61,309 nt of DNA from positions 1-61,309 of the forward strand of contig JAUNGI010000013.1 of assembly GCA_030524525.1 (NCBI GenBank). Direction: 5' to 3'. This DNA is from Lachnospiraceae bacterium (GTDB lineage Bacteria; Bacillota; Clostridia; Lachnospirales; Lachnospiraceae). The notes below the pieces were generated by a model. That model made no database searches. It was not told where the DNA came from and was given only the letters and a program-made list of their open reading frames with translations. Shown here one piece after another: positions 173 through 12,832 of this stretch. Positions within the stretch are counted from its first letter, which is position 1. Every line of letters begins with the position of its first letter. The position numbers were made by a program, and so were the translations under genes.

Positions 173-1726
173 ATGAAATACGATATCCTTGAAGGCTATA
201 TCGAAAAAGTTTACGGATATGCGATCAACCACACATACTCTCGTGAAGAAGCGGATGAACTGGCGCAGGAGATCTTGTTTACCGCGGTTCACGGACTGTC
301 CAAGCTCAGAGACGAAAACAAATTTGAGCCGTGGCTTTGGGGGATAGCGAACAATGTGACAAAAAGCTTCCGGCGTAATCTGGGAAAACAGCGCGCGATG
401 TATTCCTATGACACGCTGGAAAATTTGTCCTATGAGGACGCGTATTTCGACACACAGGAAGAAATTTACGATTCTCTGCGGACAAAAATTGCAATGCTCT
501 CTGCCATATACCGTGATATCATCGTTCTTTACTACTACGACGGCCTTTCGACGAAAACCATCTCCGAAAAGCTGAAAATTCCGGAAGGCACTGTCAGATG
601 GCGCCTTACCGAAGCACGGAGAAAGCTGAAAAAGGAGTGTACCGAAATGAAAGAAACGGCTTTAAGACCGATCAAAATGCGGCTGGACATATACGGAAAC
701 GGAAATTATGACGGACAAGCCATCCCTTTTCCCACCGTATATATCGACGACGCACTTTCCCAGAATATATTATATTATTGCTACGAGCAGCCAAAAACCA
801 CAGAAGAGCTGGCAAAAGTATGCGGCGTTCCGGCATACTATATTGAAGACCGGATCGAAAATTTATTAAAACGCGAAGCGATCATCGAAACCGCTAAGGG
901 TAAATATCAGACCGATTTTATCGTCTGGTCGGATAAATACGGTATTTACTGCGAAGAAAATGCCGAAAAGGCGCTGCTTCCGATCATGGAGGAGCTGCTG
1001 AAAGCCTTGGAAAGCATCGCGAAAGAAGCGGCGGGGATCGATTTCTATAAGGCTGAAAAAAGCGAAGACGATTTATTCTATCTTTACGGAGTTATGGCTT
1101 TTTCCTATGCAAGCGCGCACTACTGTAAATTACCAAATCCTTGGTTTAAGAGAAAATATGACGGTAATGAGTGGTGTTACCTTGGAAATATGGAAACCGG
1201 CAGGCACCGCAGAATAGGGATCCATACGCAGCACTGCGCTAATTTAGGCAGCCGGGGCGGCTGCAGCCATACCGTATATAATTCTATTTGCGGCATTTCG
1301 TTCAGGCAGATGATGCGTGACAATTACATCAATGTATGCGAAGATATCTTGCGCAGCGGCTCAACGGAGGATATGGATTCTGCGGCAAACGCAATTCAGG
1401 ACGGGTATGTTGTAAAAAGGCAGGACGGCAGCTTCTTCGTAACGGTTCCTTATTTCACGAAAGAACAAAAAGCAGAGTTTGACGCTATCGCAGACAACTA
1501 TCTTGCGCCGCTTATGCCGGAGTATTCCGAAAGCGTCAATAAATTTATCTCAGGATATAAGAAGCTGTTTCCGAAACACTTAAACGACGATGCGGACCGC
1601 ATGTGTCAAAATATGTTTCTGGGATTGTATGCGGTAATTGTCGAATACGCGCAGAGAACGGAGGCAATTCCGCCGCCGTCACCGAATTGTTATTGCGATG
1701 TTTTAATTCAATTCAAGAAAGCTTAA
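173..1726 (+). CDS. ECF-type RNA polymerase sigma factor with long C-terminal extension
   Basis: Residues 1-160 form a sigma-70 family ECF factor: a region-2 helix bundle (DELAQEILFTAVHGL, then FEPWLWGIANN) and a region-4 helix-turn-helix (LSTKTISEKLKIPEGTVRWRL). The protein then continues for about 350 residues, which a normal ECF factor of 160-200 residues lacks. Residues 195-260 look like a winged helix (TTEELAKVCGVP ... IENLLKREAIIE). A later stretch rich in Cys, His and Gly (about 345-385) could bind a metal or ligand. There are no membrane segments, so any sensing would be cytoplasmic. A GGGGG ribosome site precedes the ATG. No anti-sigma gene is adjacent on this strand. The sigma part is secure; the role of the extension is unknown. 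Confidence 0.8.
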   Translation: MKYDILEGYIEKVYGYAINHTYSREEADELAQEILFTAVHGLSKLRDENKFEPWLWGIANNVTKSFRRNLGKQRAMYSYDTLENLSYEDAYFDTQEEIYDSLRTKIAMLSAIYRDIIVLYYYDGLSTKTISEKLKIPEGTVRWRLTEARRKLKKECTEMKETALRPIKMRLDIYGNGNYDGQAIPFPTVYIDDALSQNILYYCYEQPKTTEELAKVCGVPAYYIEDRIENLLKREAIIETAKGKYQTDFIVWSDKYGIYCEENAEKALLPIMEELLKALESIAKEAAGIDFYKAEKSEDDLFYLYGVMAFSYASAHYCKLPNPWFKRKYDGNEWCYLGNMETGRHRRIGIHTQHCANLGSRGGCSHTVYNSICGISFRQMMRDNYINVCEDILRSGSTEDMDSAANAIQDGYVVKRQDGSFFVTVPYFTKEQKAEFDAIADNYLAPLMPEYSESVNKFISGYKKLFPKHLNDDADRMCQNMFLGLYAVIVEYAQRTEAIPPPSPNCYCDVLIQFKKA

Positions 1727-1730
1727 ATCC

Positions 1731-1763
1731 AAACCGCCGGGAACGAAACATTCCCGGCGGTTT
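1731..1763. terminator. Bidirectional hairpin terminator
   Basis: A perfect 13-bp stem (AAACCGCCGGGAA / TTCCCGGCGGTTT) with a 7-nt loop lies between the converging sigma factor gene and the 5'-nucleotidase gene. T-runs are weak (TTT on each side), but the position fits termination of both. Confidence 0.75.
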
Positions 1764-1794
1764 GACTGCATTACAGCTAACGGCAGAATCGCTA

Positions 1795-3462
1795 TTATTT
1801 CACCGTAATCCGATCTTGCGGCGCGGCATACGCATCGCCTATTGTCCCGCCGAGAAAATCCGACAGGTAAGTTATTAGCGCTTGGTAATCCAGAATTCCC
1901 TCGTCAATCACCAGCTTATTGTCCATAAACATAGTAAGACCGTCTCCGCCCTGCTTGATAAGGTAATTATGGGAGGCCACGGTATAAATCCGATCGGGAG
2001 CAAGCTCCGCATAGCTGCCGTCCTCCTGCAACACCCATACCTCTTGTACGCGACGGGCTCCCTCACAGGAAACAAACATCCCCTGCTCATCCACCTCCAC
2101 GCCGGACTCCACGCTTGTGTCGATCGTGTATCTTAAACCCGATACCTGCAGAAAGCCGCCGTTTTCCCCGACGGCATTTTCTCCGTCGCTTGTTTCCGGA
2201 AGGCAGGAGCGGCTCGCCATCTCCAAGGCGTCCAATATCTCCTGCCCGGTAGCCTCCGCCACACAGAGCGTATTTCCGTATGGATGAACCGCAAGAAGAT
2301 CCCCGAAGGTAATTTCCCCGACAGGAAGATCCGCTCGAATGCCGCCGCCGTTCACAATGGCGATGTCCGCTCCGGACACGGCACGGTAAGCGTCCGCGCA
2401 GAAATCTCCCAAATTTGTTTCTCTGCTGCGGATCAGGCGAACCCCGGCGTCGGAAACGGTCGTCAGCGGCACCTCGCTGTACGCCACCCTTTTCTCAAGC
2501 TCCGCTTCATATTGGCTTTCGATATTCTCAATGCAGTCCTGAATTTCCTTGTCCGTATTCGGGTAGCTTCCGATCAAGCCTGTTTGTATGTTGCCGTCCG
2601 CCGTGATCGTCACCTGTCCGATATTTTCCAGTCCCGTCCCCGTAGAGGACAACAGTACGTTTTCGCCGTCCTTATTCTCCGCCACATAACAGGAAATCAC
2701 GCTGTGGGAATGCCCGTCCAGCACAACGTCGATCCCGCTTGTATTTGCGATCAAATCCGTGGAGCAAAACGGCGCTGAGGCTTCGTCCGTTCCCAAATGC
2801 GCTAAAACCACAACGTAATCCGCGCCTTCGTTCCGGCACAGATCCACGGTTTCCTGTACCCTTGCGTACAATTCTTCTCCGTCTGCTCCATAAAAATCAT
2901 AGACGTACTCTCCGTCCGCGTCCATAAAATAGGCAGGGACCGACTTTGCGATGCTTTCCGGAGTTGACACGCCTACATATCCGACCCTAACGCCGCCATA
3001 GGAGACAATATCGTATGCCGCAAGCTGTGACAAAAACGTTTCTTCCGTTCCCGTGTAGCGGATATTGCAGCCAAGATACTGCGCCTCGCTTAGCCCCAGC
3101 AAAGCCTCGAGCTGTTCCATTCCGTAATCAAATTCGTGATTTCCCAGCACGGCATAATCATAGCCCACGCGGTTCATAATTTCCACCAGATATTCCCCTT
3201 GGGAAATGGCGCCGATGCTGTCTCCCTGCAGCGCATCGCCGCAGTCCACCAAAGCGACATAGGGCGTCTTTTCCTCGCACCACTCCTTGTAAGCCGCCAA
3301 TCCCGCGTAGCCAATATCCGCATCCACCGCGCAGTGGACGTCGTTCGTATATAAAATAATGATGTCGTTATCTTCTGTTTTGGTCTTTTCGCCGCAGCCG
3401 CCTATGAGCGCCGCCGCCACAAACAGAAGCAGCAGCGCCGACCATTTTCTCAGCATTCTCAT
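1795..3462 (-). CDS. Surface lipoprotein 5'-nucleotidase / UshA-like metallophosphatase
   Basis: A 555-residue lipoprotein: signal peptide with lipobox ending at Cys23 (ALIGGC). It is followed by the calcineurin-like phosphoesterase motifs YTNDVHC, VDCGDALQGD, LGNHEFDYG, VLAHLGTDE and DGHSHS, which are the two-metal ligands, and by a C-terminal 5'-nucleotidase domain (NGGGIRADLPVGEITFGD). The family hydrolyses nucleotides, UDP-sugars or cyclic nucleotides outside the cell, releasing nucleoside and phosphate. It is the last gene of the minus-strand run from the ABC fusion, 27 bp after the small lipoprotein gene, so it may be co-transcribed with the signalling cassette. The exact substrate cannot be told from sequence. 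Confidence 0.88.
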   Translation of the reverse strand: MRMLRKWSALLLLFVAAALIGGCGEKTKTEDNDIIILYTNDVHCAVDADIGYAGLAAYKEWCEEKTPYVALVDCGDALQGDSIGAISQGEYLVEIMNRVGYDYAVLGNHEFDYGMEQLEALLGLSEAQYLGCNIRYTGTEETFLSQLAAYDIVSYGGVRVGYVGVSTPESIAKSVPAYFMDADGEYVYDFYGADGEELYARVQETVDLCRNEGADYVVVLAHLGTDEASAPFCSTDLIANTSGIDVVLDGHSHSVISCYVAENKDGENVLLSSTGTGLENIGQVTITADGNIQTGLIGSYPNTDKEIQDCIENIESQYEAELEKRVAYSEVPLTTVSDAGVRLIRSRETNLGDFCADAYRAVSGADIAIVNGGGIRADLPVGEITFGDLLAVHPYGNTLCVAEATGQEILDALEMASRSCLPETSDGENAVGENGGFLQVSGLRYTIDTSVESGVEVDEQGMFVSCEGARRVQEVWVLQEDGSYAELAPDRIYTVASHNYLIKQGGDGLTMFMDNKLVIDEGILDYQALITYLSDFLGGTIGDAYAAPQDRITVK

Positions 3463-3489
3463 TTACAGTCCTGCCCCCAACGATCCGTT

Positions 3490-3942
3490 TTATTTTTCTC
3501 CCTGTTCGGTGGTGTAAAATCGGTATGTAACGTCTGATTTTGTCACCATGGCGGAAGCCAGATGAAGCGTATTTACCGCTTCCGTAACGGCCTTCTCCAG
3601 TTCTTCCTCCGAAACCATAAGAATGTCGAGAACAACCGTCTCATTCGATACTACTTCGCCTTCATCCAAATATGCGCCGAAAGCGTCCAATACGGTATAG
3701 CCCACGCCTTCTTTTTCAAAAATCTCCAAAATAATCTTGGTAGCTTCCTCTTTTGATACGATCTGTTCTCCCGTAGTTTTGTCGTTTAATCCGAAATACA
3801 CAATGTACTGCGTATCTTTCGTCCAAGCGCTGTTTTCCGTATGGTTTTCATTTTTCTCTTCCTCCTTGCTGCCGCAGCCGCTCATAACAGCCGCAAATAC
3901 AAGTACCAACAACAAAATCCATGCTTTATTTCTCATTTTCAC
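3490..3942 (-). CDS. Small predicted lipoprotein of unknown function
   Basis: 150 residues with a clear lipoprotein signal (lipobox VMSGC at about residue 23), a charged Glu/Asn linker and a compact alpha/beta domain containing TQYIVYFGLNDK and a C-terminal VTYRFYT strand. The layout resembles small DUF3574-like extracytoplasmic proteins, but I do not assign it. It sits between the PP2C-type signalling protein and the 5'-nucleotidase on the same strand with short gaps, so it may be an accessory surface component of that operon. Confidence 0.7.
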   Translation of the reverse strand: MKMRNKAWILLLVLVFAAVMSGCGSKEEEKNENHTENSAWTKDTQYIVYFGLNDKTTGEQIVSKEEATKIILEIFEKEGVGYTVLDAFGAYLDEGEVVSNETVVLDILMVSEEELEKAVTEAVNTLHLASAMVTKSDVTYRFYTTEQGEK

Positions 3943-3984
3943 ACGTTCCTTTCCTCTGCAAATTTGTTTGCATAAAATCAGACA

Positions 3985-6804
3985 TTACTTTTCTTCAAAT
4001 CTCTTCTTCAGCGTCAGAATATTCCGTTCATCATGATAAGCATACTCTACGCTGTCCATAAAATTCTTGACAATAAAAATCCCCATTCCTCCCGCATCCC
4101 GCTCATCAGCGGAAGCTGCCGTATTGGGATCGGGCTTTTCCGTCGGATCATAAGGACGCCCGTCGTCCGAAAAAATAATCGCAACCTCCTTTTCCTGAAC
4201 ACTGCACTCTACCGACGCCTTGCTTGCTCCGCTGTAGCGGACAATATTGGAAAATATCTCGTCAACGGCAATGTTGATCTTTATCATAACCTTTCGCGGC
4301 GCATGGAAGTTTTCCAAAGTCTCCTCCACAAACGCCGCAACCTGCGTTATGCTTTCCATCGTCGGCGCGACAGTAATCATATTCTTCTGCAGAAACCTTA
4401 AGTGGAGCATCGTAATATCGTCAAACTGGGGAGCCTCTCCCACAAAACGATCCACGTCCGCCTTTACCATGCGGCAGATTTCCTCTGCGCTCTCGCCGCG
4501 CGCATGGTTCAGCACCTTTAACAGACGCTCGTTTCCATAAAGCTCCGTGGCGCTGTTCGTCGCCTCCGTTACGCCGTCGGTATATAGATATATCTCATCT
4601 CCGGGATGCAGCGGTACTTCCCCTGTGCGGTAACGAATCTGCTCCAGCTCTCCCAAAACAAAGCCCGGACGGAACGAAAGGTACTCAAACGCCCCGCCTC
4701 CCCGACGCACCAGAGGCGGATTATGACCGGCATTGGCAAAGGTCAGCGTATGGGTCGTGAAATTCAATATTCCCATCCAGCAGGTCACAAACATCTCCGC
4801 CTCGTTTCCCTCGCACAGCGCCGCATTGGTCTTTGCAAGAATCTGCGCAACATCCGTTTCCTTCTCTGCATAGCTCTTGATCAGCGTTTTTGCCTTCATC
4901 ATAAACATGGCTGCCGTGATGCCCTTTCCGGAAACATCGGCGATCAAAAACGCCAGACGGTTCTCGTCCAACAGGTAGAAATCATAGAAATCTCCGCCCA
5001 CCTCCTTTGCCGTATCCATAGTGGCAAAAATATCAAAATCACTGCGGTCAGGGTAAGGCGGGAAAATGCCGGGAAGCGTAGAGGACTGAATAATCTTCGC
5101 AACCTCCAGCTCCTTGTCAATTCTTGCAGCCGCTTCCGCAATATACCCCTTTAACGTCATAACCGTGGAATTGATATCGTCGGAAAGCGATACAAATTCT
5201 TCATTCGTCCGGACATTTACGGACACATTCAGGTTTCCTCCCGTAATCTCGCCAAGCGTTCGGTTAATCTTATGAATGTTCTCAACCACCAGTTTCTTTA
5301 TCAGGAAGTATACGACAGCAAAAAGGGCGGCAAAAACAAGAATTTCCATGAATAATGTCACATAAACGGATAAGTCCCGCGAAAGCAACACCTCCCTCAC
5401 CGGCTCCACAGCGACGATGTAGTAGCCTTCCGTTGCGGCATACATCCAATAGCAGGTCTCGCCGTAAATGTCGCTCTTATACCGCACATTCTCCTGCATG
5501 GTTTCCGTATCAATCCAAATACCCGTAACCTCAAGGTTTTGTCCTTCGTTGTCATGGGGATCGCTCACAATGTTCCAGTTATCCGTGGAGATAATCATAT
5601 AGCCGTTTTCCCCTACATGGCGGTTTCTTGTGGCGCCGACCACCTGTTCGTCGATATCCTGCCGAAACCGTTCCGCATTGTATCCGACCTGCACAAAGCC
5701 GCCGCCGGCAAGAGACACTCCGGCATATTTCATATAGGTTATCCCATCCTTTGACAGAGGCTGATAGCTTTGGACAAGCTCCCTTTCCCCATCCAAGAGG
5801 ACAAGAAAATCTCCCGACTGTTGTCCGGAGGACATGTCAAAACCGATATACTCCGGCGTTGTGGAGCAGATAATCACTCCGTTCTCGTCAATCACATTGA
5901 TTTCCGAAAAATCATTCCCCGGCTGCGCGCCGATCTCAAAAAGCAGCGCGTTGTCTACCGTTTCCGCCGCATCAATATCGGCGGCGACGCCGCGTGTCAA
6001 TTTCAAAAGATTCTCGTCGGACGCTTCTTCAATATCGGCTTTTACATCCTCAATGTTCAGCGTCAGCAGCGCCTCATGATCGCTTATGGAAAAACTGGTC
6101 TGTAATATATAGATAAATACACTGGTTATGCCAAAAGCCGTAAGCACAACAAAAAGCAGCCATCTCGAAAAAGACTGCGACAGCTTTTTGTACTCTTTTT
6201 GCAAATGCAGCTTTTCTTTCCCCATGACAGACACCGCCAGCAATGAGAGCATCACGGAAACGGAGTTCGCCAATATCATCGGAACGGAACAGCCCTTCAC
6301 AAAGGTAAACGCCTGCTGCACGTCGCCCATGTTGGTGAAAAAAATCATCAGCATATGCAGGACTTCCGTCACAAGTCCGACGGCAAATCCATAGTACCAT
6401 GCCGGCTTTTTGTTGTCGAACATCCACTTTCTTAAAGCTGCGCCCAACAGACCGGCAAGCACCGTTGACACGGAGCAGGCAAGGCGCGTATAGGTCCCGG
6501 CTCCCCAAAGAACGGCAAACCACCGTTCCGCGCCGCCGATGATTCCCGCCATGACGCCTGCGGGAGCGCCGAAAATCAGCCCAGCGCAAAGCGGCGCCGC
6601 ATCTCTGACATTGATAATAACGCCGTATGCGGGCACGCCGAACTCGGAACAAAAAACCGACGCCAGACCGAGTACAAGTCCGTATAGAAGCTGCTTCCGC
6701 TTCTCCTGCCATCCGCCAAACGACGTCCTTCTGTCCAGAAGATAAAGACAAACCGTAGCAACGACGGGGCAGAGGGCGGCTAACGCCAATCTCAGATACA
6801 CCAT
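3985..6804 (-). CDS. Membrane PP2C (SpoIIE-type) phosphatase with LytS-like sensor, Cache, HAMP and HATPase domains
   Basis: About 939 residues. Start chosen at 6804, where GGAGG precedes ATG GTG. In order: a 5TM LytS-like membrane region (residues 1-200) containing NVRDAAPLCAGLIFGAPAG; another TM helix; an extracytoplasmic Cache-like sensor (about 240-480); a TM helix; a HAMP segment (about 505-560); a PP2C/SpoIIE domain (about 575-790) with metal-binding KEVGGDFYDF, IADVSGKG, YTDGVTEA and FDDIT; and a C-terminal HATPase/RsbW-like domain (about 810-930) with VDEIFSNIVRY, DDGRPYDP and GGMGIFIVK. In partner switching such phosphatases dephosphorylate a STAS antagonist and RsbW-like kinases phosphorylate it; both activities occur here in one chain. 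The STAS gene lies 31 bp upstream, which supports a direct substrate relationship (inference). Confidence 0.9.
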   Translation of the reverse strand: MVYLRLALAALCPVVATVCLYLLDRRTSFGGWQEKRKQLLYGLVLGLASVFCSEFGVPAYGVIINVRDAAPLCAGLIFGAPAGVMAGIIGGAERWFAVLWGAGTYTRLACSVSTVLAGLLGAALRKWMFDNKKPAWYYGFAVGLVTEVLHMLMIFFTNMGDVQQAFTFVKGCSVPMILANSVSVMLSLLAVSVMGKEKLHLQKEYKKLSQSFSRWLLFVVLTAFGITSVFIYILQTSFSISDHEALLTLNIEDVKADIEEASDENLLKLTRGVAADIDAAETVDNALLFEIGAQPGNDFSEINVIDENGVIICSTTPEYIGFDMSSGQQSGDFLVLLDGERELVQSYQPLSKDGITYMKYAGVSLAGGGFVQVGYNAERFRQDIDEQVVGATRNRHVGENGYMIISTDNWNIVSDPHDNEGQNLEVTGIWIDTETMQENVRYKSDIYGETCYWMYAATEGYYIVAVEPVREVLLSRDLSVYVTLFMEILVFAALFAVVYFLIKKLVVENIHKINRTLGEITGGNLNVSVNVRTNEEFVSLSDDINSTVMTLKGYIAEAAARIDKELEVAKIIQSSTLPGIFPPYPDRSDFDIFATMDTAKEVGGDFYDFYLLDENRLAFLIADVSGKGITAAMFMMKAKTLIKSYAEKETDVAQILAKTNAALCEGNEAEMFVTCWMGILNFTTHTLTFANAGHNPPLVRRGGGAFEYLSFRPGFVLGELEQIRYRTGEVPLHPGDEIYLYTDGVTEATNSATELYGNERLLKVLNHARGESAEEICRMVKADVDRFVGEAPQFDDITMLHLRFLQKNMITVAPTMESITQVAAFVEETLENFHAPRKVMIKINIAVDEIFSNIVRYSGASKASVECSVQEKEVAIIFSDDGRPYDPTEKPDPNTAASADERDAGGMGIFIVKNFMDSVEYAYHDERNILTLKKRFEEK

Positions 6805-6835
6805 AGCTTCCTCCAAAGCAAAGCAATTTTCAGCT

Positions 6836-7132
6836 TTATTCTATCGTCAGCACATCGACGGAGCCGGTTACTTCAAAGACCTCCATCACGTCCTCGTTCG
6901 CATTTCTGACGATCATACTGCCCTGCCGATTCATGATTTTCTGCGCGGAAAACAATACGCGGAGTCCCGCGGAAGAAATGTACTCCAACTCAGCAAAATC
7001 CATAATAAGCGTCTTCACTCCCTGCAAAGAATTTTTCAATTCTTCCTCCAGCTTTGGGGCGGTAACCGTTTCCAGCCTGCCCGCCACCTTTATTGTCAAT
7101 TCGTCCGTGTTCAAGGTTTTTGTAATCGTCAT
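6836..7132 (-). CDS. STAS-domain anti-sigma factor antagonist (SpoIIAA/RsbV-like)
   Basis: 98 residues from the ATG at 7132 (GGAGGAGAACACC upstream); a start at 7147 is less likely. The whole protein is one STAS domain: an opening TLNTDELTIKVAGRLET strand region and the signature YISSAGLRVLFSAQK carrying the conserved phosphorylatable Ser. In partner switching the dephosphorylated form binds an anti-sigma kinase and the phosphorylated form does not. The neighbouring PP2C/HATPase protein supplies the phosphatase and probably kinase, and the ABC fusion upstream ends with a second HATPase-like domain that could be a docking partner (inference). No cognate sigma factor is adjacent on this strand. 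Confidence 0.9.
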   Translation of the reverse strand: MTITKTLNTDELTIKVAGRLETVTAPKLEEELKNSLQGVKTLIMDFAELEYISSAGLRVLFSAQKIMNRQGSMIVRNANEDVMEVFEVTGSVDVLTIE

Positions 7133-7165
7133 GGTGTTCTCCTCCATTTTTATGAAATTTTATTT

Positions 7166-8209
7166 TTATATGAGGTATCTCAAAAAAGTTGCCACTTCTC
7201 CCAGCACATAGTGAACAATGCACAGTCCCCATATATTGCCCTGTTTATGGTACAATACTCCCAATGCGCCCAACAGAATCGAAGCTCCCAGCATAAACGG
7301 CAGTCCATAAGCAATATGAAGCACGCCGAAGACCAGCGAGGATACGACAATGGAGGTTGCTCCCGCGTATTTCCCCGTGAAAATGCGCTTTAGGTTTTCC
7401 TGCATAACGCCCCTTGTCAAAAACTCCTGCAGGATTACTGTAAGCGGATAAATAACGTCGGCGAAGGTTCCGACGCTCCAGTCCCAAAATGGCGCGTTTT
7501 CCGGGAAGAAACCCGGCGCCGCTTTCAGGATTACAAGCTTCCCCAAAACCAGAATAACGGTTCCCGCCAAGGTGATCAAAATATCCGGAACAAAGGTCGC
7601 CCTTGGATTTTTGATCCTTAGCCCGATATCCTTCATGGAAAAAGAGGTCGTTTTCAGAATGATGAAAAACATCACGATGGAAATCCCCTCGATCACCAAA
7701 TTCATCACCTGTCCCGGAGGATCAATCTTGAGATAGCGCAGAAAGCTCCACAAAAAGAGATACATGCACACGCAAATCATCAACACGGCGAATACGGTGG
7801 AGGACTCCCTGCGCTGCCGATTCAGTTTGGCAACCTCGGTAACATCCGTAAAAAGAACTACAATCCCCAGTTTTTTCTCCTTTGTTTCCCCATATAAAAA
7901 CGAGGAGGTAAGGTTAAAGTGCCGCAGTTCCTGATTTTCTGCCTTATACACCGTTTCGCCGTTATGTATATGCTCTTTGTCGTACACCGCGTCGAGAACA
8001 AACTGATGGAATTTATCGTTTGTTTCATCCGTTTCCTTTGCCAGAAACGTCTTTCCGTAATTTCTTCCGGTGATATCCTGCTCCACGCCGAGCATCGCGC
8101 GTCCTCTGTCGTTCAGATATAATATCTGTCCATGCATATCCAGTACCAGAACGCCGTCGTTCATGTCCCTGAGAATACGGGGTACAATCTCTTTTATTTC
8201 CGTCTCCAT
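7166..8209 (-). CDS. PAS domain fused to CPBP-family intramembrane protease-like domain
   Basis: 347 residues from the ATG at 8209, which has GAGGGAG just upstream; an upstream start would overlap the previous gene. Residues about 5-130 are a PAS domain (ILRDMNDGVLVLDMHGQILYLN ... VVLFTDVTEV, split for length). About seven to eight membrane helices follow, with CPBP/Abi motifs: QEFLTRGVMQ (motif 1, first Glu replaced by Gln), VFGVLHIAYG (motif 2) and IVHYVLG (motif 3). CPBP proteins include CAAX-prenyl endopeptidases and regulators of anti-sigma factors. The PAS fusion suggests a redox- or ligand-gated membrane component. The Gln for Glu change may impair catalysis. It lies between the ABC fusion (49-bp gap) and the STAS gene (33-bp gap). 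Confidence 0.8.
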   Translation of the reverse strand: METEIKEIVPRILRDMNDGVLVLDMHGQILYLNDRGRAMLGVEQDITGRNYGKTFLAKETDETNDKFHQFVLDAVYDKEHIHNGETVYKAENQELRHFNLTSSFLYGETKEKKLGIVVLFTDVTEVAKLNRQRRESSTVFAVLMICVCMYLFLWSFLRYLKIDPPGQVMNLVIEGISIVMFFIILKTTSFSMKDIGLRIKNPRATFVPDILITLAGTVILVLGKLVILKAAPGFFPENAPFWDWSVGTFADVIYPLTVILQEFLTRGVMQENLKRIFTGKYAGATSIVVSSLVFGVLHIAYGLPFMLGASILLGALGVLYHKQGNIWGLCIVHYVLGEVATFLRYLI

Positions 8210-8258
8210 ACCGCTCCCTCCTCTTGTTAAAATTGCAGCGGTTCCGCTTCCCGCCCTC

Positions 8259-11018
8259 TTACTTAAATTCCAAGACAAGACGATTTTTTTCGTCCGCAAA
8301 GTCGTAGGCGTATTCTTTTACCGCGGCGCGCACCAGCATAAGGGACAGCTCATCCCCTTCCTTCATGGGGTTGTACTGCCTGCCGTTCCATGCCAAGCGC
8401 ATTTCCAGCCGACTCTCCTTCTCCGAATATTCGACGGAAATCGAAATCGGATACTCCGGCGCTCCGGCAGGGACAACATTCTGCGCGATAATCTCCTCAA
8501 ATACGCGGCGCAGATTCTCGATCTGACGTCGGGACAAAAGATTCTTTTCCCCAAATTGCCGTATGCTTTCCGACATACGGATGAAATCATAATCCGAAGA
8601 TGCAAGCGTCAGCGTCAAAGTTTTTAACTGCCGCACAAAGGCGCGGGTTTTGTCCTTTTTCGGCCGCTCGAAAATTTCCTCCGGCGTCCCTTCCTCGTAA
8701 ATCACTCCCTCGTCCATATAGAAGATCCGGGTGGACACATCGCGGGCAAATCGCATTTCATGGGTTACGATCATCATCGTCAGCCCTTCCGAGGCAAGGC
8801 GTTTCATAACGCTCAGAACTTCTCCCACCATCGTCGGATCGAGCGCGCTTGTCGGCTCGTCAAACAGAACGATCTCCGGGTTCATGGCGAGCGTCCGGGC
8901 AATCGCAACACGCTGTTTCTGCCCGCCGGACAATTCATCGGGGTAATTCAGCGCCTTCTCCGCCATACCCACCATGCGCAGAAGCTGGATTCCGTTCTCG
9001 TATGCCTGTTGTTTGGACATGCCTTTCAGTACCGTCGGAGCCAAAATGACATTCTCAATCACCGTCAGATGACCAAACAGATTGAAGGACTGAAATACCA
9101 TACCCATGCGGCGGCGCAGCAAACGCAAATCGGTTTTCCGGTTTCCGGTATCTTTTCCAAAAACGAAGATCTTTCCGTCCGTGGGGCTCTCCAGACGATT
9201 CACACATCTCATCAGCGTAGATTTTCCCGTTCCGGACGGGCCTATGATCGTAATCACCTCACCGCGTTTTATGACGGTATTCACATCCTGCAGGGGCTTT
9301 GCATTCGGGTATTCTTTCTTCAAATGTTCCATGCGTATCAGCTCGCTGCTTTTAGGCAAGGAATCCGGAATCGCTTTTTCCGTCGTTTCCTCCGTTCGGC
9401 TGTCCTCCGGGCTTCCCTCTGCACGAATCCCCCTTGGATATTTTCTGGCCCGCCGTTTCGGATCGATCACGACTTCCATCCTGCCGATTCCAAAAACAAT
9501 CAAAGAGGACAGGATAAAGTAGATGACCGCCGTTGTAAGCAGCGGAAAAAACGCCTCGTAGGTACGGCTCCGAATAATGTCGCCGGCTTTTGTCAAATCC
9601 TCAATCGAGATATAGCCCACAATGGAGGTCAGCTTCACCATGGTAACAAGCTCGCTCTTATATAAGGGCAGCACATGCCTTACCGCCTGCGGCAGGATAA
9701 TGCGCCCAAAGGCTCCGGCGTTTCCGAAGCCCAACGCTATGGCGGCTTCCCACTGTCCTTTGTCCACCGCCTCGATCCCGGTGTTCAGAATGCCGGATAC
9801 GGAAACCGCAAACAGCACGGAAAACGCAATGACCGCAACCAGCACCGGAGAGATTTGAACCGAACCGAAAATGACAAAATAGGTAATCATCAGCACGACA
9901 AGGCTGGGGATTCCCTGCATCAGCTTGGAAAAGGCTTTGGCAAGGAACGAAAGAACGCGCGCTCTGCTTCTCAGGCACAGGCAGAGCAAAAAGCCCAAAA
10001 CCGTACCCAAAATTCCCGCAAAAACAGAAATCTCAAGCGTAACCAGCAGTCCGTTTGCAATGAGCTTCCAACGGCTTCCCCGGATAAAGGTCTTTTCAAA
10101 GCTTTCTTTCAGCCCGGCAAAAAAACCGCCAAGACCTGTCCCGTCGTCCGCCGCCGCGGCTCCGGTCGAATTTGCCAGCAGCTCCTCCGATATCGTACCT
10201 CTCCGACACAAAAACACCGTGCCGCCGGAATAGTAGGATTCGCAGAAATCCATCACTTCCAGACGTTCTTCCGTAATCATATAACAGCTCGCGCCGATAT
10301 CCGCCCGCCCCTGCTGCACATACATCATCAGCGACACGGTTTTCGTATTGATAAACTCCACACCCATGTCGAGACGGTCGGCTATGATCAGTGCCAGCTC
10401 CGTTTCCAGACCGGAAGCCTTCCCATCGTCTCCGATGTAAACCATCGGCATGGTAGAAGGGTCAAAGGCATAGCGAAGCGTTCCGCCCGCACGCTCGGAG
10501 GTATCGTACTGCGACCAGTCGATCCGCATGCGCTCCTCGTCCCCGCTGAACCATTTCTCCTTCAAGGAGTCCAGCGTACCGTCCGCTTTCAGCTCCCGAA
10601 TCACTTCGGAAACCGGCTCGGTCAAAGCGCTGTCCTTTTTCAGCAGCATACTGAAATCGTAGTTGGATATGACCTCCGGGAACACCGCCAGCTCCCGCGG
10701 GAACTGCGCCGCGGCAAGCTCCGCAACCGGACTGTCCAGAACAAGCGCCGTCACATCGCCTTTTTTCAGCGCCGCTATCATCGTTGCCAAGTCGTCGTAA
10801 TAGCTCCAGTTCAGGTTTTCATACTCCCCCGCCATCAGCTCCTCATAGGCGGCGCCGGTCAGCGTTCCGACGTTTTTGCCGTTAAAATCGGCAAGGGTTC
10901 CGAGCTGCGCCTCCGTTTTGTCTGTATTTCCGGCGCTGCAGCCGCCTGCAAAAAGAAGCAGAAATCCCAAAAGCAGAGCGATTGCGTATCGCTGTGTTTT
11001 GAAGTGGTTCCTTCTCAT
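8259..11018 (-). CDS. Single-chain polar amino acid ABC transporter (binding lobes + permease + ATPase) with degenerate HATPase-like C-terminus
   Basis: About 919 residues. A GGGGG site precedes two ATGs (11024 and 11018); 11018 has the better spacing. A lipoprotein signal (LLLFAGGC, Cys27) leads into a solute-binding segment resembling lobe 2 of SBP_bac_3 (about 35-155), then a lobe-1-like segment (about 180-275, with [11 protein letters not shown]). A His/Glu/Gln-type permease follows (about 300-520, EAA loop [14 protein letters not shown]), then a GlnQ-like ATPase (about 560-785) with [32 protein letters not shown] and the switch His in VTHEM. The last 120 residues align by eye with the HATPase end of the PP2C neighbour ([27 protein letters not shown]) but lack the ATP-binding Asp/Gly boxes. 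It probably imports or senses an amino acid at the membrane. Confidence 0.87.
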
Positions 11019-11040
11019 AGCCATATTGCCCCCGTTATAC

Positions 11041-11622
11041 TTAGTCGCCAATATCCGTATGTCCCTGCTCAAATTCCCACTGAAGCCCATACTTGTCGAT
11101 AAAGTAAAAATACTTCGTATTGCTGAGGATATCCGCCGCTTCCTGCTTTGCTTTTACATTGTTTTCCTTTTCGCTGTCAAAGAAGCAGAAATCGGAAGGC
11201 TCCGTTTTGCTGATCTGATAGACGCGGTACCGCTCCGTCGTGTTGATCAGCGTAACGTCCGGCTGCGACTTGATATATTCAAACGCTTCCTCAATATTGG
11301 TAATCTTGAGAGCCACATGTCTTGCACCGCTGACGTCGTTCGCCGCAAAGATAACCGGCTCCTTGCGTCCTTCCGGTCTGTGGTAGCACATAAGCTCCAG
11401 CGTAAGGCGCGTTCCCGGCACATCCATAAAGCCGATGGATACCTCCGCATCTTCCGCCTCGTCAATAAAACCGCCCGCTTCAAAAAAGCCTTTGTTTTTC
11501 CAATGAGGGATATGCTGATTCGGTACTGCGCCTAATATCCTTTCGTAATACGCAAATGCTTCCTCCACATCATCCACAAAGATACATACATGCGATAAGC
11601 CTATAAAATTTGGTTTTTCCAT
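11041..11622 (-). CDS. VOC (glyoxalase/bleomycin resistance) family protein
   Basis: 193 residues from the ATG at 11622 (GGAGGATGG upstream). The N-terminal fold [21 protein letters not shown] and a later [16 protein letters not shown] plus [13 protein letters not shown] give the paired beta-alpha-beta units of the vicinal oxygen chelate superfamily, with His and Glu metal-ligand candidates. Members include isomerases, dioxygenases and binding proteins, so no substrate is assigned. It ends 17-23 bp before the start of the ABC fusion, so it may be the upstream member of that operon. Confidence 0.8.
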
Positions 11623-11682
11623 TTTGCACCATCCTCCAAAAATGCTGCCCGTCGGGACAGCCGCATCTTTTTTCACTCCCTG

Positions 11683-11877
11683 CTATTTCAAAATCCCATG
11701 ATCTCTCGCCAGATTCTCTATGCTTCTGTCATATGTAGCCTCTGCTTCTTTCGAAAAGAAACATCCGGGAACGCCTTCGTTATGGTCGCGATGATGCGCC
11801 ACGCAGGCGCAGCATTTCCCATGATTCGGGCAATCGTAGGTGCAGGGACAGGGTCTGGTATTGTCACAAGTATTCAT
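11683..11877 (-). CDS. Small cysteine-rich protein (DUF6485-like)
   Basis: 64 residues from the ATG at 11877, which has GAGGAGG in front. The sequence has Cys and His clusters (CPCTYDCPNHGKCCACVAHH) and ends with CFFSKEAEATYDRSIENL. This matches my recollection of the small DUF6485 family common in anaerobes. The cysteines suggest zinc or Fe-S binding. It faces the divergent MerR gene across a 150-bp promoter region containing a dyad, so it is the likely first gene of a MerR-controlled unit (inference). Confidence 0.7.
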   Translation of the reverse strand: MNTCDNTRPCPCTYDCPNHGKCCACVAHHRDHNEGVPGCFFSKEAEATYDRSIENLARDHGILK

Positions 11878-11918
11878 AACTTCCTCCTCTTTTTCAAGTC
11901 GATTTTTGATTTGCGGTA

Positions 11919-11948
11919 TTGACATTTTCCCACAATCTCAGATACACT
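11919..11948 (+). promoter_or_regulatory. Promoter for the merR-type gene
   Basis: TTGACA at 11919-11924 and TACACT at 11943-11948, spacer 18. It reads toward the MerR gene starting at 12029. Confidence 0.55.
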
Positions 11949-11956
11949 CTTTTATA

Positions 11957-11986
11957 TTATGCCACGTTCACCCATGAACGAATCAA
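11957..11986 (-). promoter_or_regulatory. Divergent promoter with MerR-type dyad in its spacer
   Basis: On the minus strand TTGATT (11981-11986) and CATAAT (11957-11962) are 18 bp apart. The spacer contains a perfect inverted repeat CGTTCA-CCCA-TGAACG at 11965-11980. A dyad between -35 and -10 is typical of MerR-family operators, and a merR-type gene is divergent here. Confidence 0.55.
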
Positions 11987-12028
11987 GGGGTTTTTCATCT
12001 TTACCCAAAAAACAATGGAGGAATTTTT

Positions 12029-12832
12029 ATGTGTCAGGATATCGGACATTTGTTTTCCATCACGCAGGCTGCCCATGCCTGCGGGCTTTCCCGCAGTACG
12101 CTCATGCGTATGGAGGAAAGGGGGCTGCTTACTCCCGCCTATATCGCCCCAAACAGCGGACGAAGGTATTATGACAATCACAATGTTGCCCGCATATTAC
12201 AGGTACAGATGTTTCAGTCAATGGGCTTTGACACAGAGGTAACCGCGACATATTTTTCAAAGAACGGCGAAGCGGCGGAGCTTCTTGCCCTTCTGGAAAA
12301 CAAGCTGAACCTGCTGCGAAGAAACGTGGAAGAAATGCGTCTGCGTTCCATGCAGTCCCCCAATATGTCCGTTCAGATAATCGAGCTGCCGGAGATCTTG
12401 TGCTGTGTACGCAGACATACCGGGCTGACGATTCAGGAAAAATATGACGCCATGTACGATTTTTACCATGATTGTATCCGTTCCGGCTGTGTGCTAGCGA
12501 AAGAGCCGCTTCTGGTGATCAATGAACGCACGGACTATTTGCAGGGAAAGATTACCTCCACCCCCTATCCTTTTCAGGTATGCGTCCCTGTTCTCCCCGA
12601 AAAGGCTCCCGCCGACGCCGTATGTCTCCCGTCCTGTACCGCTCTCTCCGTACTGTTCTATGATTACGGCAATGTGAACGAGGCATGGCTTACGCTCGGA
12701 AGGGAAGTAAAGGAACGGGAGCTTACTCCCGCCGCATTTCCAAGGACGCTCGGTATTGTAGCGCCTTATACCGGACGTGAAATTGATCCGAAGCGTTACT
12801 GTTCAAGAATTGTTCTGCCGATTCAGCAATAA
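12029..12832 (+). CDS. MerR-family transcriptional regulator with effector-binding domain
   Basis: 267 residues. The N-terminal winged helix reads FSITQAAHACGLSRSTLMRM, then a wing with SGRRYYD; a coiled-coil dimerisation helix follows (about 85-110). The C-terminal 150 residues form a GyrI/SOUL-like effector domain (VQIIELPEILCCVRRHTG ... TLGREVKERELT), as in multidrug-responsive BmrR-type regulators. GGAGG precedes the start. MerR proteins bend promoters with long spacers to activate them. The adjacent dyad and the divergent Cys-rich/VOC/ABC genes are the natural targets. The ligand is unknown. Confidence 0.87.
   Translation: MCQDIGHLFSITQAAHACGLSRSTLMRMEERGLLTPAYIAPNSGRRYYDNHNVARILQVQMFQSMGFDTEVTATYFSKNGEAAELLALLENKLNLLRRNVEEMRLRSMQSPNMSVQIIELPEILCCVRRHTGLTIQEKYDAMYDFYHDCIRSGCVLAKEPLLVINERTDYLQGKITSTPYPFQVCVPVLPEKAPADAVCLPSCTALSVLFYDYGNVNEAWLTLGREVKERELTPAAFPRTLGIVAPYTGREIDPKRYCSRIVLPIQQ

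Follow-up and report, generated by a model that had tools for sequence, protein, structure and literature searches.

A degenerate RsbW-like domain on an ABC importer as a candidate receptor for a partner-switching STAS protein in a Lachnospiraceae bacterium

Contig JAUNGI010000013.1 of a Lachnospiraceae bacterium (assembly GCA_030524525.1), analyzed over its 61,309 nucleotides (nt) and referred to here as the window, carries a tight run of four minus-strand genes at positions 3985-11024. They encode an ABC importer, a PAS-CPBP protein, a STAS protein, and a sensor combining PP2C phosphatase and HATPase kinase domains, and the gaps between them, read by eye, are 49, 33, and 31 nt. A preliminary description of this DNA had placed four adjacent same-strand genes here, which we confirm, and had regarded them as the parts of an RsbW/RsbV/RsbU-type switch tied to a transporter. 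The STAS protein and the PP2C-HATPase sensor bear out that view, but the kinase-like end of the transporter is probably not a second working kinase.

The importer gene (8259..11024, minus strand) lies in an open reading frame spanning 8259-11090. Its start codon was picked by eye from the ribosome-binding site, as ATG at 11024 (921 amino acids [aa]) or at 11018 (919 aa). Behind a lipoprotein-like signal, also assigned by eye, the single chain contains two SBP_bac_3 stretches, a permease domain (BPD_transp_1), an ATPase domain (ABC_tran), and a C-terminal tail of ~123 residues; all three Pfam families expected of a polar amino-acid ABC importer are thus present. The tail (8262..8636, minus strand) had been called HATPase-like. 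It has no Pfam match, and the assignment is upheld by profile comparison with HATPase_c_2 (hhalign probability 98.3%, E 2.4e-14) and by a confident fold prediction with structure searches, both of which point to the fold of RsbW/SpoIIAB-type STAS kinases. Tails of relatives are 25-61% identical to that of the window.

The residues that bind ATP in this fold are lost from the tail. Motif positions were counted in one alignment of 68 PP2C-fused HATPases, 58 ABC tails, and 14 SDF-fused and 33 MATE-fused copies from the transporters described below. The N-box asparagine is present in all 68 PP2C-fused HATPases versus 4 of the 58 ABC tails, and the G1 aspartate in 67 of 68 versus none of 58. For three glycines of the G2 box, the counts are 0, 2, and 6 of the 58 tails, and 57 or 58 tails have gaps in the lid columns, while the N-box glutamate is retained in all 58. 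Judged from these motifs, the ABC tail is probably a pseudokinase, and a second working kinase is probably absent. It is very improbable that the tail is instead still active as a STAS kinase through an unconventional nucleotide site, relaying the state of the transporter by STAS phosphorylation: the STAS-kinase fold and the N-box glutamate would suit such an activity, but nearly all 58 tails lack the N-box asparagine, G1 aspartate, G2 glycines, and lid, on which grounds we rejected it, and the sensor already supplies an intact HATPase. Since the tail lacks the ATP-binding residues and keeps the STAS-gripping fold, it is best read as a putative STAS receptor.

The sensor (3985..6804, minus strand; 939 aa) consists of a LytS-type five-transmembrane (5TM) region, weak Cache-like and HAMP-like regions, a SpoIIE-type PP2C domain, and a HATPase domain. 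Of the LytS/Cache/HAMP/PP2C/HATPase architecture first suggested for it, the LytS 5TM region (5TM-5TMR_LYT, 3.6e-27), PP2C (SpoIIE/PP2C, PF07228, 2e-55), and HATPase (HATPase_c_2, 2.6e-21) stand by Pfam. Cache falls below the Pfam cut-off (sCache_2, E 0.05), and HAMP has no Pfam match in the window sensor, with three of eight aligned sensors positive at E <= 0.01. The HATPase motifs are intact (DEIFSNI, D-D-G, and GGMGIF), and these positions are kept in 66-68 of the 68 PP2C-fused copies. The STAS protein (6836..7132, minus strand; 98 aa) has a single domain and is of the anti-sigma-antagonist type, as described earlier (TIGR00377, 63 bits, cut-off 53.45). The serine of its ISSAGLR motif aligns with the S of RsbV D-S-T-G-L, the serine phosphorylated in RsbV.

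We favor, with moderate confidence, the interpretation that these genes form a partner-switching system in which the transporter itself is the output, the sensor setting the state of the STAS protein and the latter docking on the dead tail. In RsbU/V/W partner switches, a signal shifts the balance of PP2C and HATPase activities and thereby the phosphorylation state of STAS. Here, the 5TM-Cache sensor would read an external signal, its PP2C domain would strip phosphate from STAS, and its HATPase domain would add it. Unphosphorylated STAS would then dock on the ABC ATPase tail, which presumably descends from RsbW/SpoIIAB-type STAS kinases and, because ATP binding was lost, would hold STAS without phosphorylating it. 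Docking might alter importer activity or assembly. By analogy to MlaB, which is required by its ABC ATPase, activation is the slightly preferred outcome.

The PAS-CPBP protein (7166..8209, minus strand; 347 aa; start chosen by eye from the ribosome-binding site) does contain the two domains attributed to it (PAS_9, 6.2e-9; Rce1-like, 5e-13). However, when the loci compared were queried with its PAS and CPBP domains (start E 1e-5), the protein of the window itself was the sole match, and a later PAS match in locus L234 (loci, genomes, and contigs are numbered L, G, and C) is, by eye, part of a hybrid histidine kinase. With no relative beside tailed ABC genes in these loci, it was rejected as a core part of the system. 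Its CPBP part reads Q-E-F-L-T-R and differs from the CPBP motif E-E-x-x-x-R, which makes protease activity doubtful.

Gene co-occurrence in relatives, proposed as a check in the preliminary description, was found for the STAS, sensor, and tailed ABC genes in part of the relatives. We compared tailed and tail-less ATPase genes in the same 36 genomes, hand-picked from those with a strong tail match (G428, G437, G403, G418, G334, G635, G167, G116, and G414 were omitted). Among the 150 matches listed, 43 tailed and 89 tail-less rows were used; 14 low-scoring frames of 279-368 aa (presumably mostly MetN-like), three long frames without tail match (G508:C2, G434:C252, and G434:C594), and half a split gene were dropped. 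Counting STAS frames up to ~180 aa and PP2C matches above ~125 bits, a STAS or sensor-type PP2C gene lay within 10 kb of 14/43 tailed versus 4/89 tail-less genes (Fisher p 3.1e-5), with ~1.5 expected by random placement. Three of the four control positives share a single arrangement and come from three genomes within one genus. With the distance reduced to 5 kb, the counts were 8/43 versus 3/89 (p 0.005). Across all loci retrieved, 25 of 59 tailed ABC genes had a STAS (STAS-APH included), sensor PP2C, HATPase, or fused SDF or MATE gene within 9 kb, and 71 of 72 such neighbors were on the same strand as the tailed gene. Nine of the 59 entered through PP2C-led sampling and are hence biased; without them, 16 of 50 were linked, one via a fused MATE only and one via a STAS-APH fusion only.

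In four genomes belonging to a different family within the order (loci L074, L079, L080, and L081), genes for STAS, sensor, a tailed SDF symporter, and the tailed ABC protein follow each other in that order, the sensor having the same 5TM-Cache-PP2C-HATPase architecture at 59-60% identity. The same order is plausible in G381, where it is broken by contig ends, with the SDF end at the edge of C14 and STAS near the edge of C51. G189, a genus-mate of the window, encodes STAS, a Cache-PP2C-HATPase protein, a substrate-binding protein, a permease, and an ATPase with a divergent tail (30 bits) consecutively (L221); this tail was missed at the first search threshold. Sensor-type PP2C (~125 bits or more) occurred in 34 of 36 genomes with the tail versus 7 of 20 without it, which is only a hint, as the 20 were taken from the genomes listed without a tail match instead of being sampled at random, and G189 among them later proved tail-bearing.

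The theme is wider than the window: next to the same genes, such a domain is also present on transporters of the SDF, MATE, and EamA types. When the sensor alignment was scanned against 84,980 species genomes and the best 80 loci were kept (further matches exist), 59 of these 80 contained at least one STAS gene without APH fusion and 26 a transporter fused to a HATPase-like domain, drawn from four superfamilies, ABC (8), SDF (6), MATE (17), and EamA (1), in overlapping sets. The domain was found on 17 of 23 MATE and 6 of 8 SDF frames in these loci, fragments counted. L183 combines tailed SDF, tailed ABC, STAS, fused MATE, and PP2C-HATPase genes in this order. In L173 and L184, STAS begins 27 and 29 nt, respectively, after the tailed ABC gene and is followed by PP2C-HATPase. 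L186 (a Synergistaceae record) has PP2C-HATPase next to an EamA carrier tailed at its C terminus and to a tailed ABC system. Records with fused transporters are metagenome assembled and labeled as Bacillota groups, Atopobiaceae (Actinomycetota), Synergistaceae, and Kiritimatiellae.

The domain is N-terminal in SDF proteins and C-terminal in ABC, MATE, and EamA proteins; thus, fusion arose more than once. SDF-fused copies resemble the ABC tails (N-box asparagine in 2/14 and G1 aspartate in 0/14), and MATE-fused copies are intermediate (7/33 and 21/33), so some of the latter may still bind nucleotide. Among the MATE matches listed for 14 genomes, most were frames of 440-520 aa, and two proteins were longer than 560 aa. 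Fused MATEs score low, and G235, which holds one (L127), gave no MATE match at the threshold of this length comparison. It is tempting to generalize that a dead RsbW-like domain serves as a plug-in STAS receptor, repeatedly fused to unrelated transporters and allowing a sensor to set solute traffic via STAS phosphorylation, a generalization about which we are evenly divided.

Several observations weigh against a transporter output. Thirty-four of the 59 tailed ABC genes lack a linked switch gene within 9 kb, and 54 of the best 80 sensor loci lack a fused transporter; some of these genes (not all) and some of these loci are on short contigs. In 13 of the 80 loci, the sensor has large ABC exporters, on which no tail was found, at a distance of no more than four genes. 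G532 possesses a tailed ABC gene and one STAS gene (probably SpoIIAA) and no sensor-type PP2C. Same-strand linkage fits co-expression without contact too. Finally, a simple rule based on unphosphorylated STAS may not carry over, because the nonphosphorylatable variant MlaB Thr52Ala is reported to be nonfunctional in the available part of PMC7367683.

The unlinked tailed genes might alternatively indicate a leftover fusion, in which the tail serves ATPase dimerization or stability only, STAS and sensor regulate another target, and linkage reflects common use. The fast divergence of the tail would suit this explanation, as would the C-terminal tail of MlaF, which serves dimerization (PMC7367683, as far as available). 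When 119 ATPase domains of the loci compared were placed in a tree, 54 tailed rows and one broken tailed gene grouped with 100/99 support, and a single fusion could simply be inherited. The bootstrap was not fully settled, and the tree did not extend to amino-acid ATPases without a tail that are encoded in other parts of the genomes; a single origin of the ABC tail fusion is thus likely rather than established. Against this, the domain is also joined to SDF, MATE, and EamA proteins beside the same genes, implying several fusion events, all 58 tails have kept the same glutamate despite the lost ATP-binding residues, and linkage exceeds that of tail-less ATPases. We therefore consider a leftover fusion unlikely.

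Other genes were noted in the loci compared. The large ABC exporter frames are often paired (L142, L151, L158, L161, L163, L178, L185, L196, L201, L203, L204, and others); that in L142, the sole one checked by Pfam, is a C39-peptidase exporter. STAS-APH-fold kinase fusions were repeatedly seen beside partner-switch genes, by Pfam in L086:3884-5185 and L107:14820-16043 and by hidden Markov model (HMM) in L126:9486-10676, L127:2770-4287, L132:9202-10809, and others, with STAS, APH, and HATPase in a single protein in L132. A protein of ~205 aa adjoins the 5TM-PP2C-HATPase sensor in L134:8485-9096, L135:2229-2855, L139:9333-9953, L140, and L141. Its N-terminal half resembles a degenerate HATPase (by HMM in four of the five and only by eye in L139), and the protein carries no transporter part. 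A gene cluster, the checked member of which is phosphatidylglycerol lysyltransferase-like, recurs near the sensor in L185:5886-6755 and seven other loci; in L185, the gene sits between STAS and the fused MATE. In L114:5501-12444, genes for STAS, ATP-grasp, MATE-HATPase, GH3-like, PP2C, and HATPase proteins follow one another, and the fused MATE lies within an apparent biosynthetic cluster. An anti-phage defense role of the window genes was rejected, as PADLOC matched the ATPase region of the ABC protein only.

Two further minus-strand genes follow the sensor gene at gaps of 42 and 27 nt, encoding a DUF3574-like lipoprotein (3490..3942; DUF3574 match below the Pfam cut-off) and a 5'-nucleotidase family protein (1795..3462), both probably belonging to the same operon. 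Because of the short gaps between all six genes, the run is likely one operon. In a consensus scan of both strands at 1500-12500, promoter-like and terminator-like sites numbered 18 and 17, compared with 10.7 +/- 3.1 and 11.7 +/- 3.0 in shuffles; none lay on the minus strand within the gaps of the six genes, and two promoter-like sites were located at 4030-4073 within the 3' part of the sensor gene. Relatives of the lipoprotein gene adjoin tailed ABC genes in L017 and L111, and relatives of the nucleotidase gene lie near them in L011, L107, L111, and L177. A xanthine/uracil-type permease recurs near tailed ABC genes in L011 (by Pfam) and nine more loci (by blastp cluster only).

The preliminary description had noted the absence of an adjacent sigma factor on the strand. 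None was seen on the operon strand, but an ECF-type sigma factor gene (173-1726, plus strand; Sigma70_r2 and r4) converges on the operon, 68 nt beyond the nucleotidase gene. Its product has a C-terminal extension of roughly 350 residues. The proximity of this gene is consistent with a reverse flow of information, in which the transporter senses, the tail holds STAS depending on solute flux, and freed STAS acts on another target, for instance a sigma/anti-sigma pair or an enzyme elsewhere in the genome. A dead kinase domain would also suit such a decoy role, and other outputs of partner switches are known, SiaC activating the diguanylate cyclase SiaD (PMC8457831). However, relatives of the window ECF gene were found in only two examined loci, L014 and L142 (other sigma types were not sought), and the window genome (G000) has just three STAS matches, namely, that of the operon, one on C19 beside a HATPase_c_2 gene (SpoIIAA/SpoIIAB-like), and one 554-aa frame. 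Moreover, a large extracellular region is already part of the sensor, and importers, exporters, and symporters alike carry the domain. Reverse flow thus appears doubtful.

Among the matches listed in searches of the open-access PMC literature, none, judged by title and start of abstract, describes RsbW-like domains fused to transporters in the neighborhood of STAS/PP2C genes; the scope did not extend to closed journals and preprints. Each component is known, and to our knowledge a dead-kinase receptor on transporters has not been described. The transporter-output reading hence suggests an undescribed mode of transport control. If it is true, partner switching, mainly known for transcription, also acts directly on the uptake of nutrients and on efflux in bacteria of the gut and rumen, and transporters under such control can be recognized by their pseudo-HATPase domain. 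If the domain moreover is a plug-in receptor, it defines a transport-control output class of partner switching. As the likely phosphatase, kinase, STAS protein, and dedicated docking domain are co-encoded here, STAS control of transporters could be tested with few purified parts.

Among known systems, Rv1364c, which presumably itself also carries STAS, stands for fusions that likewise hold phosphatase and kinase in one chain. Unlike this type (PDB 3ke6, 7.8e-12), the window sensor includes a 5TM region and extracellular parts, and its STAS protein is separate. SiaABCD of Pseudomonas aeruginosa acts on a diguanylate cyclase that SiaC binds via its stalk (PMC8457831) and not on a transporter bearing a kinase-like receptor. 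MlaFEDB likewise ties a STAS protein (MlaB) to an ABC ATPase (MlaF); in the part of PMC7367683 available, MlaF requires MlaB for stability and complex assembly, phosphoregulation is proposed, and the authors leave control of transport by STAS and phosphorylation open. There, MlaB binds the ATPase core directly, unlike the docking proposed for the window tail, and no PP2C or kinase partner for MlaB is mentioned, whereas the window has both domains. The window STAS protein reaches 19.1 bits with the MlaB equivalog model, well short of its cut-off of 90. RsbU/RsbV/RsbW and SpoIIE/SpoIIAA/SpoIIAB share with the window a STAS protein with a conserved serine, a SpoIIE-type PP2C, and a HATPase kinase, the fold of which recurs in the tail. 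In contrast to both, the window joins phosphatase and kinase in one chain, has no sigma factor on the strand, and possesses a second kinase domain, dead in ATP binding, on a transporter.
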